A stretch of 64,000 bases of DNA from Skermanella pratensis (GTDB lineage Bacteria; Pseudomonadota; Alphaproteobacteria; Azospirillales; Azospirillaceae). The notes under the pieces were generated by a model. The model was not told where the DNA came from. It was given only the letters and a program-made list of their open reading frames with translations, and ran no database searches. The stretch is taken from NCBI RefSeq assembly GCF_008843145.1, contig NZ_CP030265.1, positions 157,501 through 221,500 of the forward strand, read 5' to 3'. A program made the translations under genes and the position numbers. Shown piece by piece: positions 12,234 to 52,283 of the stretch (its first letter is position 1; each line of letters begins with the position of its first letter).

Positions 12234-12500
12234 TTAGCCATAACGGACTTTGAATGCCAAAATCGTCGCCGCAATGCATAAGGTGACGACATTCGCCAGT
12301 ATTACCGGAAAAGCGCCGAGCATGAAGCCATAGATTACCCATAGGACGATGCCACCGCAAAAGCATATGAACATGGTCAATGAGATGTCTTTGGCCGATT
12401 TGCTGCGCCAGGTTTTTATTGCCTGGGGGAGAAACGCGATGGTGGTGAGCAGGCCGGCGATCATGCCGACAAGTTCCTGCGCTGCGTGTGGCGTATCCAT
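12234..12500 (-). CDS. SemiSWEET-type sugar transporter (PQ-loop)
   Basis: Bacterial half-SWEET: 88 residues with three membrane helices and the PQ motif in the first (AFLPQAIKTWRSKSAKDIS). Such proteins dimerise to make one sugar channel in the inner membrane; substrates are mono- or disaccharides. Length, PQ position and topology all fit. It lies alone between the hybrid kinase and mmcB, so context says nothing about the sugar. Confidence 0.85.
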   Translation of the reverse strand: MDTPHAAQELVGMIAGLLTTIAFLPQAIKTWRSKSAKDISLTMFICFCGGIVLWVIYGFMLGAFPVILANVVTLCIAATILAFKVRYG

Positions 12501-12659
12501 CGGATGCGTGTCCGGCGAGAGGATGGGGGCGACTAGATGAAGAATCGGTGCATCGTAAGGCGACGGCTCTCGGGAAGCCAGCGGCGAATTGGCGCTTGGC
12601 CCGGCGGCACAAGTTGTTCATGATATGTGCTGTCCGGGTGCGTCCGGATGGTCGGATTG

Positions 12660-13154
12660 ATGGCTGGGGCAATGGATTTCGAGGACCAAGCGGATTCGGA
12701 GCGGACCGGGCGGACCGGCATCGCGGACCTGTTGTCGCGGGGCGTGCGCCGGGCTCTGGCCGAACGCGGCTTCGCCAGCCTGACCGAGTTCCGTCTGGCA
12801 TCGGGCCGCCGCGCCGACGTCATGGCGGTCAACGAGGCCGGCGACGTGGTCATCGTGGAGATCAAGAGTTCGGTGGCGGATTTCAGGACCGACCAGAAAT
12901 GGCCCGAGTATCAGGCCTTCTGCGACAGCTTCTTCCTCGCGGTCGGAGCCGATTTCCCGGCCGACCTCATACCGCCGGAATGCGGGCTGATGGTCGCCGA
13001 CGGCTTCGGCGCCGTGATCCTCCGCGATGCGCCCCTGGTCAAGCTCAATGCCGCGCGCCGTCGCGCCGTCGTCCTGCGCGTGGCGCTGGCCGCCAGCGGC
13101 CGTCTCCACCGTCTGGAAGATCCGATGCTGACCATGGCGGTGACAGCGGGCTGA
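12660..13154 (+). CDS. mmcB: MmcB-family DNA repair endonuclease-like protein
   Basis: Small putative nuclease of the MmcB family, linked in Caulobacter to survival of mitomycin C damage. The 164 residues show a PD-(D/E)XK core: E in FRLASGRRADVMAV, then DVVIVEIKSS with the E-x-K pair, then a strand-helix tail with PPECGLMVADGFGA. The start at 12660 has a GGATGG ribosome site; 12672 is an alternative. The stop codon lies inside the first unit of a nine-copy 24-bp repeat, so the final residues (VTAG) are encoded by repeat sequence, which suggests the array grew from, or invaded, the 3' end of this gene. Confidence 0.82.
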   Translation: MAGAMDFEDQADSERTGRTGIADLLSRGVRRALAERGFASLTEFRLASGRRADVMAVNEAGDVVIVEIKSSVADFRTDQKWPEYQAFCDSFFLAVGADFPADLIPPECGLMVADGFGAVILRDAPLVKLNAARRRAVVLRVALAASGRLHRLEDPMLTMAVTAG

Positions 13155-13350
13155 TCACCTTTCGTGACAGCGGGCTGATCACTTCCAGTGACAGCGGGCT
13201 GATCACTTCCAGTGACAGCGGGCTGATCACTTCCAGTGACAGCGGGCTGATCACTTCCAGTGACAGCGGGCTGATCACTTCCAGTGACAGCGGGCTGATC
13301 ACTTCCAGTGACAGCGGGCTGATCACTTCCAGTGACAGCGGGCTGATCAC
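13140..13350. repeat. Nine-copy tandem repeat, 24-bp period
   Basis: The core GTGACAGCGGGCTGATCAC (19 bp) begins at 13140, 13164, 13188, 13212, 13236, 13260, 13284, 13308 and 13332. Five-base spacers are TTCCA in seven of eight gaps; the first gap is CTTTC. Each core folds on itself (GTGACAG against CTG-A-TCAC, one bulge, CGGG loop). The period equals eight codons, so both strands read through it, but no gene need be implied. Near identity of the copies points to recent expansion. Confidence 0.97.
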
Positions 13351-13440
13351 CTATGCCAATTTGAAGCCTGGAGCCGTCTCCGGGGGCTCGCTATGGTGCG
13401 CGGCCGGTTCCCCGATCCCGCCCCCCAGGCACAGGTTGCA

Positions 13441-14373
13441 ATGGCCGACGACATCCTGATCATCAAGCTCGGCGCACTGGGCGACCTTTTCCAGGCCGAG
13501 GGCGCGCTGCACGACATCCGCCTCAACCATCCGGGCGCGCGCATCACCCTGCTGACCGGGCCGGCCTACCGGGCACTGATGGAACGATGCCCCTGGGTCG
13601 ACCGGGTGGAGTTGGACCCGCGCGCGCCGCGCTGGCGCCTGGACCGCATGCTTGACCTGCGCCGGCGCCTGAGGTCGGTGCCGTTCGACATGGTCTACGA
13701 CCTCCAGAACGTGTCCCGGACCGCCTTCTACCGTCGTTGGTTCCTGCCGAACACCCCCTGGTCGGGAACGGCGCCGGGCTGCAGCCATCCGCACCGGGCG
13801 GTCGATCCCAAGCGGATTCCCAGCCTGCAGCGGCTGGCCGGACAGCTGGCGGATGCCGGCGTTCCGGTCCGCCACGCTTTCGCCCCCGATCTCGGCTGGG
13901 TCGCCGACGACGTATCGGGCATCCTTGCGGACGCCGGTGTCCGGGAACCTTACGTCGTGCTGCTGCCGGGCTCCTCGGCGCGGCTGCCCCACAAGCGCTG
14001 GCCCGGGTACGCCGCCCTCGCGGAACGCCTGACCGGTGCCGGCATGACGGTGGTGACCGTGCCGGGACCCGATGAGTTGGATCTCTGCCGGTCGATACCG
14101 GGCATCATGCTGACCGCCGGGAAGTGGCTGAACTTCTTCCAGCTGGCGGGCGTTCTGGCCGGTGCGCGGCTGGTGATCGGAAACGACAGCGGCCCCACCC
14201 ATCTGGCTGCGCATCTCGGGCGCCCGACCGTCGCGCTGTTCGGCAGCCATATGGCGGCTCGCCTGACCGGCATCGACCGCCCCTGGGTGACATGCGTCGA
14301 AGTTCCGGATCTCGCGGCACTGCCCGTCGGACAGGTCGAAGATGTCGTGAACAGCCGCCTTGAACAGCGCTGA
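13441..14373 (+). CDS. Glycosyltransferase family 9 (heptosyltransferase-like)
   Basis: ADP-heptose:LPS heptosyltransferase-type enzyme (GT-B fold) acting at the inner face of the inner membrane. Of 310 residues, the start ILIIKLGALGDLFQAEGAL is the GT9 hallmark; later come VVLLPGSSARLPHKRWP (the nucleotide-sugar side) and the donor-site LVIGNDSGPTHLAAHLGRPTVALFG. Family members begin immediately before ILIIKLGALGD, which favours the ATG at 13441; an ATG at 13393 would add 16 residues. No lipopolysaccharide operon surrounds it, so the acceptor sugar is open. Confidence 0.85.
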   Translation: MADDILIIKLGALGDLFQAEGALHDIRLNHPGARITLLTGPAYRALMERCPWVDRVELDPRAPRWRLDRMLDLRRRLRSVPFDMVYDLQNVSRTAFYRRWFLPNTPWSGTAPGCSHPHRAVDPKRIPSLQRLAGQLADAGVPVRHAFAPDLGWVADDVSGILADAGVREPYVVLLPGSSARLPHKRWPGYAALAERLTGAGMTVVTVPGPDELDLCRSIPGIMLTAGKWLNFFQLAGVLAGARLVIGNDSGPTHLAAHLGRPTVALFGSHMAARLTGIDRPWVTCVEVPDLAALPVGQVEDVVNSRLEQR

Positions 14374-17471: not shown

Positions 17472-18128
17472 TCAGGCCTTCATGTTCACCTGGCCGCCTG
17501 GCGGAGCCGCGGCCCGGGCCTTGCTGCCGGCGGAGGCTGCGGCGTCGGCGCTCTGCTTGGCCTGCTGCTCGATCCGGCTGACGGCGGCCGACGTCTGCTG
17601 GGTCAACGCCTCGGTCTTCGGCAGCGCCTTCATGGCGTTCTTCGTCTGCTCCACCGCCTGCCGGTAGCCCTGGCTGATCGCCGCGGCCTGGGAGGCGAGC
17701 GCCTCGGTCTTGGGCAGCGGTTTCGCGGAGTCGTTGCCCTGCTGGACCGCCTGCTTGTAGCCCTGGGAAATCGCCCCGGCCTGGCTGACCAGGGCTTCGG
17801 TCTTGGGCAGCGGCTTGGCCGCCTGCTTGCCCTCCTCGATGGACTGCCGGTAGGCTTGGCTGATGGCGCTGGCTTGGCTGACCAGCGATTGGGTCTTGGG
17901 CAGCGGCTTGGCCGCCTGCTTGCCTTCCTCGATCGCTTGCCTGTAACCCTGGCTGATCGCCGCGGCCTGGCTGTTGAGTTGGTCGACCTTGGGAACCGGT
18001 TTGGTGGAGTTGTTGGTCTGATCGATGAGGGCCTGCGACTTCTGGACGTTCTGCTTCATTTGCTGGACCAGTTCCGTCACCTTCGGCGCTGAGCGCATCA
18101 GGGAGGTATCGACGGCGGAGACAACCAT
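17472..18128 (-). CDS. 31-residue helical repeat protein, unknown function
   Basis: A 218-residue soluble protein whose centre is four and a half copies of a 31-residue unit of the form KPLPKTEALVSQAGAISQGY + KQAVQQGNDSA. Each unit should fold as a long amphipathic helix broken at the Pro-x-Pro turn. The N-terminus (MVVSAVDTSLMRSAPKVTELVQQMKQN) and the Ala/Gln-rich tail flank the array. The pattern recalls phasin-like or apolipoprotein-like helical proteins, but I recognise no family. No signal peptide or membrane segment. The start is the ATG at 18128, where repeat-like character begins. Confidence 0.7.
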   Translation of the reverse strand: MVVSAVDTSLMRSAPKVTELVQQMKQNVQKSQALIDQTNNSTKPVPKVDQLNSQAAAISQGYRQAIEEGKQAAKPLPKTQSLVSQASAISQAYRQSIEEGKQAAKPLPKTEALVSQAGAISQGYKQAVQQGNDSAKPLPKTEALASQAAAISQGYRQAVEQTKNAMKALPKTEALTQQTSAAVSRIEQQAKQSADAAASAGSKARAAAPPGGQVNMKA

Positions 18129-18272
18129 GGCAGAACCTTCGGACCCTGCGTCACCCGGAAAGGCGACGCCAAATCTATAAAATGCGATCAATTGCAAGAT
18201 ACGACCGAAAGCGTGCGGTGTCCAACGCCAAATGGGCATTTATCCTTCGACCGACCGCCGGTCGGCGAATCG

Positions 18273-34862: not shown

Positions 34863-34881
34863 GTCACTTCCACGAGACGGC

Positions 34882-36372
34882 TCACTTCCACGAAACGGCG
34901 GTCACGTCGTTGGCCGGAACCGGGCTGTTCTCCCACAGGCCGGTCAGCCCGGCCTTGTGGACCCCCGCCTTGGGCAGCTGGAACAGGAAGACGTTGACGC
35001 TGTCCTCGGCCAGGATGCGCTGGGCGTCGCCATACAGGGCGGCGCGGCGGTCCGGCTCGACGGTGCGGCTCAGCTCGTCCATGACGGCGCCGAAGCGGTC
35101 GCTGCGGTAGCCGAAGTAGTAGTCGGGCCGGTCGTAGATGTCGATGTCCAGCGGCTCGACGTGGGACACGATGGTCATGTCGAAGTCCCGGCCGCGGAAC
35201 ACCTGCTCCAGCCAGGGCGCCCATTCCATCGGCTCGATCCGCAGGCGGATGCCGGCTCCGGCGAGCTGGGCCGCGATGATCTCGCCGCCGCGCCGGGCAT
35301 AGACCGGCGGCGGCAGCCTGATCACGGCGTCGATCCCGTCGGGATATCCCGCTTCCGCCAGCAGCGCCCGCGCCTTGGCGGGATCGTGGGGATACAGGCC
35401 GGTCAGGTCGACGTAGCCGGCGCGGTGCGGGGCGAAGTGGCTGCCGATCGGCGTGCCGTAGCCGAACATGGCGCCGTCGATCACGTCCTGCCGGTTGACC
35501 GCGTGGGCCAGGGCGCGGCGCACCCGGACGTCGTCGAACGGCTTGCGGGCGTTGTTGAGCGCCAGCACCGTCTCCCCCTCGGTGGTGCCGACGGTGACGG
35601 TGAAGCTCCTGTCGGCCTCCAGGACCGGCAGGGATTCGGTGGCGCCGATGTTCGGGAAGGCGTCCACGTCGCCGGAGCGGACGGCGTTCAGCTGGGCCGC
35701 CGGATCGCTGATGAAGCGGAACACCACCTCGCCCAGCTTCGGCACCGCCGGGTCTCGGAAGTCGGGATTGCGCGCCAGCACCACCCGGTCGCCGGAAACC
35801 CAGCGGTCGAACCTGAAGGGGCCGGTGCCGACCGGCCGCTGCCGGTTGGTCGCGGCGGTTTCGGGCGCCACGATGGCGGCGTCGTTGGAGCCCATGTTGA
35901 ACAGGAACTGCCCGTCGGGACGGGTCAGGGTGACGGCGACGGTCAGCGGGCCGGGCGTTTCGACCGACCCGATCGCCGAGAAATAGCCTTTCTGGGCATT
36001 GACCGAGTCGGCCCCGCGCGCCCGGTCCAGCGCGAACTTGACGTCGGCGGAATCGAACCCGGTGCCGTCATGGTACTTGACCCCCGGCCGCAGCTTGAAG
36101 GTGTAGGTCAGGCCGTCGGGCGAGACCTCCCAGCTTTCCGCCAATCCGGGGACCACCTCGCCCCGCGCGTCGATCCGGGTCAGGCTCTCGAACAGGTTGG
36201 AATATGTGACCTCGTCGATCGCGGCGGCGGCACCGGCCGTCGGGTCCAGGTGCGGCGGCTCCAGCTGCATGCCGATGACCAGGCGGTCGCGGTTCTGCGC
36301 CGCGGCTCCGGCCGGCAGCAGGGCGCCCGCCGCCAGCAGCGCCGCGGCGATCAGCAAGGGTGAGGATTTCAT
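34882..36372 (-). CDS. Family 5 extracellular solute-binding protein
   Basis: Periplasmic receptor of the same importer, 496 residues, with a signal peptide ending PAGAAAQ and the SBP_bac_5 pattern: LEPPHLDPTAG, YSNLFESLTRIDARGEVVPGLAESWEVSPDGLTYTFKLRPGVKYHDGTGFDSADVKF, and VRRALAHAVNRQDVIDGAMFGYGTPIGSHF. Ligand (peptide, opine or other) not predictable. GGAG lies eight bases before the ATG. Its last codons and stop (VSWK-stop) are repeated directly downstream as an 18-bp tandem duplication. Confidence 0.9.
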   Translation of the reverse strand: MKSSPLLIAAALLAAGALLPAGAAAQNRDRLVIGMQLEPPHLDPTAGAAAAIDEVTYSNLFESLTRIDARGEVVPGLAESWEVSPDGLTYTFKLRPGVKYHDGTGFDSADVKFALDRARGADSVNAQKGYFSAIGSVETPGPLTVAVTLTRPDGQFLFNMGSNDAAIVAPETAATNRQRPVGTGPFRFDRWVSGDRVVLARNPDFRDPAVPKLGEVVFRFISDPAAQLNAVRSGDVDAFPNIGATESLPVLEADRSFTVTVGTTEGETVLALNNARKPFDDVRVRRALAHAVNRQDVIDGAMFGYGTPIGSHFAPHRAGYVDLTGLYPHDPAKARALLAEAGYPDGIDAVIRLPPPVYARRGGEIIAAQLAGAGIRLRIEPMEWAPWLEQVFRGRDFDMTIVSHVEPLDIDIYDRPDYYFGYRSDRFGAVMDELSRTVEPDRRAALYGDAQRILAEDSVNVFLFQLPKAGVHKAGLTGLWENSPVPANDVTAVSWK

Positions 36373-52165: not shown

Positions 52166-52250
52166 GGCCCTATGGGTTTTCGGGCCCTATGGGTTTTCGG
52201 GCCCTATGGGTTTTCGGGCCCTATGGGTTTTCGGGCCCTATGGGTTTTCG
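52166..52250. repeat. Five-copy tandem repeat, 17-bp period
   Basis: GGCCCTATGGGTTTTCG repeated exactly five times (starts at 52166, 52183, 52200, 52217, 52234). Each junction forms a GGGCCC palindrome. The array lies 34 bases before the modD start, so it forms part of its upstream region. The length is not a multiple of three, so it cannot be a coding repeat in one frame. Confidence 0.97.
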
Positions 52251-52283
52251 GAAGGGCACGGTTTCGGAAGGATGCGGGACGTC

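Follow-up and report, generated by a model that had tools for sequence, protein, structure and literature searches.

VNTRs that overlap a stop codon are a known kind of repeat, and the array described here, which lies across the stop codon of mmcB in Skermanella pratensis, looks like an ordinary but traceable instance of it. Of 88 VNTRs in Yersinia pestis, 10 lie over stops and 6 over starts, and the authors of that work suggested that variation at stops might affect ORFs less (PMC3689786). As at mmcB, the stop-overlapping units in Y. pestis contain the stop of the ORF and their copy number varies between lineages (PMC3689786), whereas the variation shown for the mmcB array is between species, not strains, and its unit is nearly self-complementary. 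REP/BIME elements (PMC3733652) are likewise short, hairpin-forming repeats placed right after a gene, but the mmcB array occupies a single locus, with none dispersed, and its 19-bp core carries on neither strand the GTAG or CGTC tag of REP/BIME ends. Mycobacterial MIRUs (PMC12548453), which are also short repeats at gene junctions, seem to be mobile elements that insert at start codons and contain an ORF, unlike the mmcB array, which sits at a stop codon, is unique and is gene-derived. Finally, the TAACTGA heptamer arrays of Beggiatoaceae (PMC4679880) are similar in being intergenic direct repeats with stop-like triplets, but there are 169 sets of them in one genome, mostly just upstream of starts. 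Judged by titles and abstract openings, none of the papers listed in searches on stop-codon-overlapping tandem repeats, on Skermanella repeats and on the subject more broadly appears to report the array.

The array at the end of mmcB

The window, that is, the whole stretch of 64,000 nucleotides of S. pratensis DNA that was analyzed, carries on its plus strand a DNA-repair MmcB-like gene (mmcB; PF06319, Pfam E 1.4e-53) at 12627-13154 by its longest ORF, the true start being uncertain with in-frame ATGs at 12660 and 12672. Relatives of mmcB were found in 38 of the 59 genomes searched (own genome included), and the protein is 84% identical to its S. stibiiresistens and S. aerolata relatives. In Caulobacter, MmcB is described as a PD-(D/E)XK-family endonuclease that is under SOS regulation and gives protection against mitomycin C (PMC9578287), and no link between this role and the array was found.

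TRF places a tandem array at 13140-13350 (period 24, 8.8 copies, 98% matches, score 399), and the first-pass annotation was right to describe it as nine near-identical repeats holding the mmcB stop: all nine units, at 13140+24k, contain the 19-bp core (GTGACAGCGGGCTGATCAC) without a mismatch, and the stop (TGA, 13152-13154) is inside unit 1. This unit (13140-13163, plus strand) consists of the mmcB codons V-T-A-G-stop followed by nine bases, and we take it for the seed of the array, the gene tail of the outgroups being homologous to it. Units 2-8 (13164-13331, plus strand) are seven identical 24-bp copies; that is, the 24-mer made of the core and the five-base spacer TTCCA occurs exactly seven times where shuffles expect none, while the spacer after unit 1 is CTTTC. 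Unit 9 (13332-13350, plus strand) is the core only and passes into unique flanking DNA (CTATG). A TGATCA in every unit and a period of eight codons had also been noted, and both hold (9/9 cores, period 24); 24 being a multiple of three, the TGA recurs in the mmcB frame in each unit. Due to the same period, three frames are open through the array, one of them forward (ORF 12488-13459, with DSGLITSS repeats) and two reverse, yet a translated array was rejected as the mmcB frame meets a stop codon in each unit and nothing was seen in favor of a product. The head-to-tail, near-identical units fall within the about 10-60 bp typical of a minisatellite (VNTR), and the highest copy number of any array sampled in 2.36 Mb outside the mmcB stretches was 5.5 (period at least 12, at least 95% matches).

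A search of the 5.87-Mb genome for the 19-bp core, which the first-pass annotation had proposed, returned nine exact occurrences, all within the array, and no exact copy outside it; the next best matches were a single place at two mismatches and five places at three. Since the core is unique in the genome, the array is no dispersed REP family, and a dispersed repeat of the REP/BIME type is ruled out. An intrinsic terminator (GC-rich stem plus T run) was found nowhere on the plus strand of 12400-13600, the sole terminator-like stem there being on the minus strand inside mmcB. In a CRISPR array the repeats are separated by unique spacers some 30 bp long, while the spacers here are 5 bp long and identical after units 2-8, which rules out such an array. 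Rfam gave no match above threshold in 12900-13600; its two hits there fell far short of their gathering scores (17.7 bits against 69, and 10.5 against 90). A plasmid origin was rejected because 13100-13420 matched nothing in the plasmid collection. A phage origin was rejected too; the exact 19-mer is present in one viral contig, as a single copy in a 73-codon ORF that reads the minus strand of the core and without an array, which we take for chance.

Downstream lies a glycosyltransferase family 9 gene (13441-14373, plus strand; heptosyltransferase-like, PF01075, Pfam E 3.9e-25), whose start is best placed at 13441, where an ATG or GTG is aligned in five of five Skermanella, and not at 13393 as in the longest ORF. 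Between this gene and the array, 17 bp beyond the array end, is a conserved block, CTGGAG-N18-TATGGT (13368-13397, plus strand), which all five Skermanella keep as CTGGAG or CTGGAA, a largely variable 18-nt spacer and TATGGT. The block does not match in a scan with the sigma-70 consensus; we read CTGGAR-N18-TATGGT, on its conservation only, as a putative promoter of the glycosyltransferase gene.

The mmcB junction in five Skermanella species

The junction between mmcB and the glycosyltransferase gene was compared in five Skermanella, with one genome per species: S. pratensis itself (G000), G001, G002, S. aerolata and S. stibiiresistens. There are nine units in G000, three in G002 (the third degenerate and with one extra base) and two in G001 (the second degenerate), while in S. 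aerolata and S. stibiiresistens the junction holds just the gene tail, both genes being retained there with no array. Two adjacent units (up to 3 mismatches) were present in 3 of 82 genomes of the family, precisely G000, G001 and G002. Hence, the copy number differs between lineages, as is characteristic of a minisatellite, and this reading, one of three that the first-pass annotation had offered, is supported by the series of nine, three and two units in sister species with only the gene tail in the two outgroups.

The distance from the stop to the promoter-like block is 213 bases in G000, 70 in G002, 55 in G001, 56 in S. aerolata and 23 in S. stibiiresistens; that is, S. aerolata (56) holds unrelated DNA as long as the short array of G001 (55). 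The tail of the S. aerolata gene (GCG-GGC-TGA) aligns with unit 1, which indicates that the stop predates the array. G000, G001 and G002 are about equally distant from each other (87-89% DNA identity in aligned pieces), while S. aerolata and S. stibiiresistens share 72-83% DNA identity with G000 (aligned pieces). Based on these distances and the distribution of the array, the first duplication would most simply be placed on the branch leading to the three array-bearing species, and the growth to nine units in the S. pratensis lineage. Across these three species the core is less variable than the spacers.

A TRF scan of 100 mmcB loci (excluding the S. pratensis locus itself, L009, and L012, a copy of L039; some genomes are represented twice, and minus-strand loci were oriented by a simple open-frame rule) found stop-spanning arrays in two, those of G002 and Azospirillum agricola, the two units of G001 being below the TRF threshold. 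The A. agricola array (L041, 3390-3442) has a 15-bp unit in 3.6 copies over the mmcB stop and is unrelated in sequence.

We favor, with a probability of roughly 80%, the reading that the array is a locus-specific minisatellite, neutral or near-neutral, that arose from the 3' end of mmcB and then grew in the S. pratensis lineage. As the comparison of species shows, a 24-bp stretch over the mmcB stop was duplicated in tandem in the lineage common to the three Skermanella, and growth to nine copies would have followed in S. pratensis by slippage or unequal exchange, as the seven identical units suggest. Single-strand stems of the nearly self-complementary unit may have eased this expansion. The array is probably tolerated because unit 1, which still supplies the exact coding end and the stop, keeps the protein intact, and because the additional units are confined to the stretch between the stop and the conserved promoter-like block of the next gene.

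Tandem arrays over stop and start codons

To assess arrays over stops and starts more generally, TRF was run on 1.66 Mb of the S. pratensis genome (window included) and on 0.4 Mb from each of the G001 and G002 genomes, with genes called by our own dicodon-model caller. The pooled test, which covered 2.36 Mb and 2180 genes outside the three mmcB stretches and took all arrays without an orthology filter, compared the arrays with random placement. Stops were spanned by 27 of all 135 arrays (expected 19.9, p 0.053), by 19/62 at match 85 and score 50 (expected 9.6, p 0.0006), by 11/27 at match 90 and score 60, a set of arrays touching non-coding DNA (expected 5.0, p 0.0056), by 8/29 with at least 2.8 copies (expected 6.0, p 0.23) and by 6/18 with at least 2.8 copies and match 85 (expected 3.9, p 0.16). 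That is, stop-spanning arrays reach up to twice the random expectation, significantly at two of the five thresholds, and the excess is threshold-dependent. For the match 90, score 60 set taken per species, stops were spanned by 10/22 arrays in G000 (expected 4.7, p 0.002), 1/3 in G001 (expected 0.5, p 0.44) and 3/7 in G002 (expected 1.1, p 0.09). The absence of a significant excess at three of the five thresholds, and in G001 and G002 alone, is a counterpoint to the minisatellite reading, as is the dependence of the excess on our own gene calls.

The avoidance of starts is the steadier result, significant at four of the five thresholds. Starts were spanned by 8 of the 135 arrays (expected 21.1; none of 5000 placements as low), 6/62 at match 85 and score 50 (expected 10.3, p 0.083), 1/27 at match 90 and score 60 (expected 5.6, p 0.012), 1/29 with at least 2.8 copies (expected 6.5, p 0.003) and 0/18 with at least 2.8 copies and match 85 (expected 4.3, p 0.004). 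A duplication over a stop spares the protein and one over a start usually does not, so both results fit tolerance; the stop and start counts reported for Y. pestis run in the same direction as our Skermanella survey.

Individual arrays of several kinds were also seen. Within the window, these are a perfect minisatellite at 52166-52251 with a 17-bp unit (GGCCCTATGGGTTTTCG) in 5.1 copies (100% matches) that extends over the start of a called gene; a doubled 18-bp unit at 34864-34899 that spans the stop of a gene called on the minus strand (34882-36357), an event of the same kind as that at mmcB but with two copies; and a 93-bp repeat in about four copies (76-77% match) at 17607-17973, in a minus-strand frame (17472-18239) without a Pfam match. 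Elsewhere in the S. pratensis genome, arrays of about three or four units lie over the stops of called genes in L167 (14541-14589), L208 (13043-13108), L156 (3441-3487) and L210 (16355-16399), and a 156-bp unit is repeated 4.8 times with 91% matches in L228 (8167-8918), where no gene was called.

Folding of the units and alternative readings

The first-pass annotation had also stated that each unit can form a hairpin, and this holds better for neighboring units than for a unit by itself. A lone unit folds weakly, at -6.0 kcal/mol (31 of 200 shuffles as good), while two units fold at -22 kcal/mol (0 of 200), and the region 13120-13440 beats 100 of 100 shuffles (z -3.6). The best stem pairs the right half of one unit with the left half of the next (GCTG(A)TCACN-NNN-NGTGACAGC), which puts the stop codon in the 5' arm; the first such stem-loop, at 13150-13171 on the plus strand, is GCTG(A)TCACC-TTT-CGTGACAGC, with the mmcB stop itself in the arm, and the junction recurs every 24 bp, eight times in total. 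Among 71 strong arrays, each with its unit shuffled and doubled, the mmcB unit ranked fourth in fold z (-2.02) and its G002 version fifth (-1.88), and the doubled units averaged z 0.06, four being below -2. The mmcB unit is therefore more hairpin-prone than most of the sampled arrays, but not uniquely so. A hairpin as a general cause of expansion was rejected, as the 71 strong arrays on average fold no better than their shuffled units.

Alternatively, the stem-loop that embeds the stop might be a selected structure of the mRNA 3' end that, as in REP elements, protects against 3' exonucleases, the extra copies strengthening it. Consistent with this, all three array-bearing species preserve the stem GCTG(A)TCAC...GTGACAGC; their five junction stems have energies from -8.1 to -10.6 kcal/mol and, compared with mononucleotide shuffles, z scores from -3.5 to -4.3, and the junction stem of G001 is intact even with a changed unit 1 (GTAACGGC); the high rank of the doubled mmcB unit points the same way. 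The innermost pair switches from C-G in G001 and G002 to T-A at the junctions after units 2-8 in G000, but such a paired change is seen only once, which makes it weak evidence for selection on the stem, and the junction of units 1 and 2 in G000 has a C-C mismatch at this very pair. Over the entire 3' region, folding is stronger than in shuffles for G000 (z -5.2) and for G002 (z -2.7), but such excess is absent in G001 (z -0.67) and S. stibiiresistens (z 0.19); moreover, both outgroups retain the two genes without the stem (different stems form in the S. aerolata region, z -1.7), and no T run was found after a stem. A core that is steadier than the spacers, together with one spacer pair changed on both sides, could reflect selection on the stem, and a slowing of mRNA decay by the array, as the first-pass annotation had suggested, is possible but unproven. 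On balance, we consider a selected 3'-end structure unlikely.

A joint hypothesis would hold that stops are preferred birthplaces of minisatellites in Skermanella, and perhaps in other GC-rich bacteria, and that the hairpin at the mmcB stop is selected, with its copy number tuning how long the mRNA of a DNA-damage gene lasts. The paired change in the spacer between species, from C-G to T-A, would suggest such a selected, stop-embedded hairpin; taken as a whole, we regard this combination as rather improbable.

In another reading, which we judge very unlikely, the repeats would serve as clustered binding sites for a protein that regulates the promoter of the glycosyltransferase gene downstream. 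The array ends just upstream of the conserved CTGGAR-N18-TATGGT block, the repeated sites are palindromic, and the inter-unit palindrome (up to 3 mismatches) occurs at 54 places in the genome, 46 of them outside the array, vs. three for the reversed pattern. However, the reversed pattern is an unfair control (0 hits in the 1.66-Mb sample), and with fair controls over the same 1.66 Mb the true spacing gave 13 places compared to 7 to 23 for eight wrong spacings and 15 for swapped half-sites, which leaves no excess of binding-site-like places; in addition, 12 of the 13 true-spacing places are inside called genes, the exact palindrome or core is found nowhere in the genome outside the array, and the promoter-like block is kept in S. 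aerolata and S. stibiiresistens without an array. The earlier proposal of a protein-binding array is thus unsupported, with a unique core, loose matches at control level and two of the five species keeping both genes in the absence of an array. Finally, short reads often miscount tandem arrays, but an assembly artefact with a real copy number smaller than nine is hardly credible given the 2-3 units at the same junction in two other genomes, an array of only 211 bp, a unit 1 with its own spacer and a unit 9 with its own edge.

Hence, we favor the minisatellite reading, under which the comparison of the five species would assign the origin of a minisatellite to a single branch, with the coding end of a gene as its seed, and provide a compact case of repeats arising where the protein takes no harm. 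The array is also a candidate typing marker for Skermanella and, if its copy number altered the life of the mRNA, it would represent a tunable 3' end.
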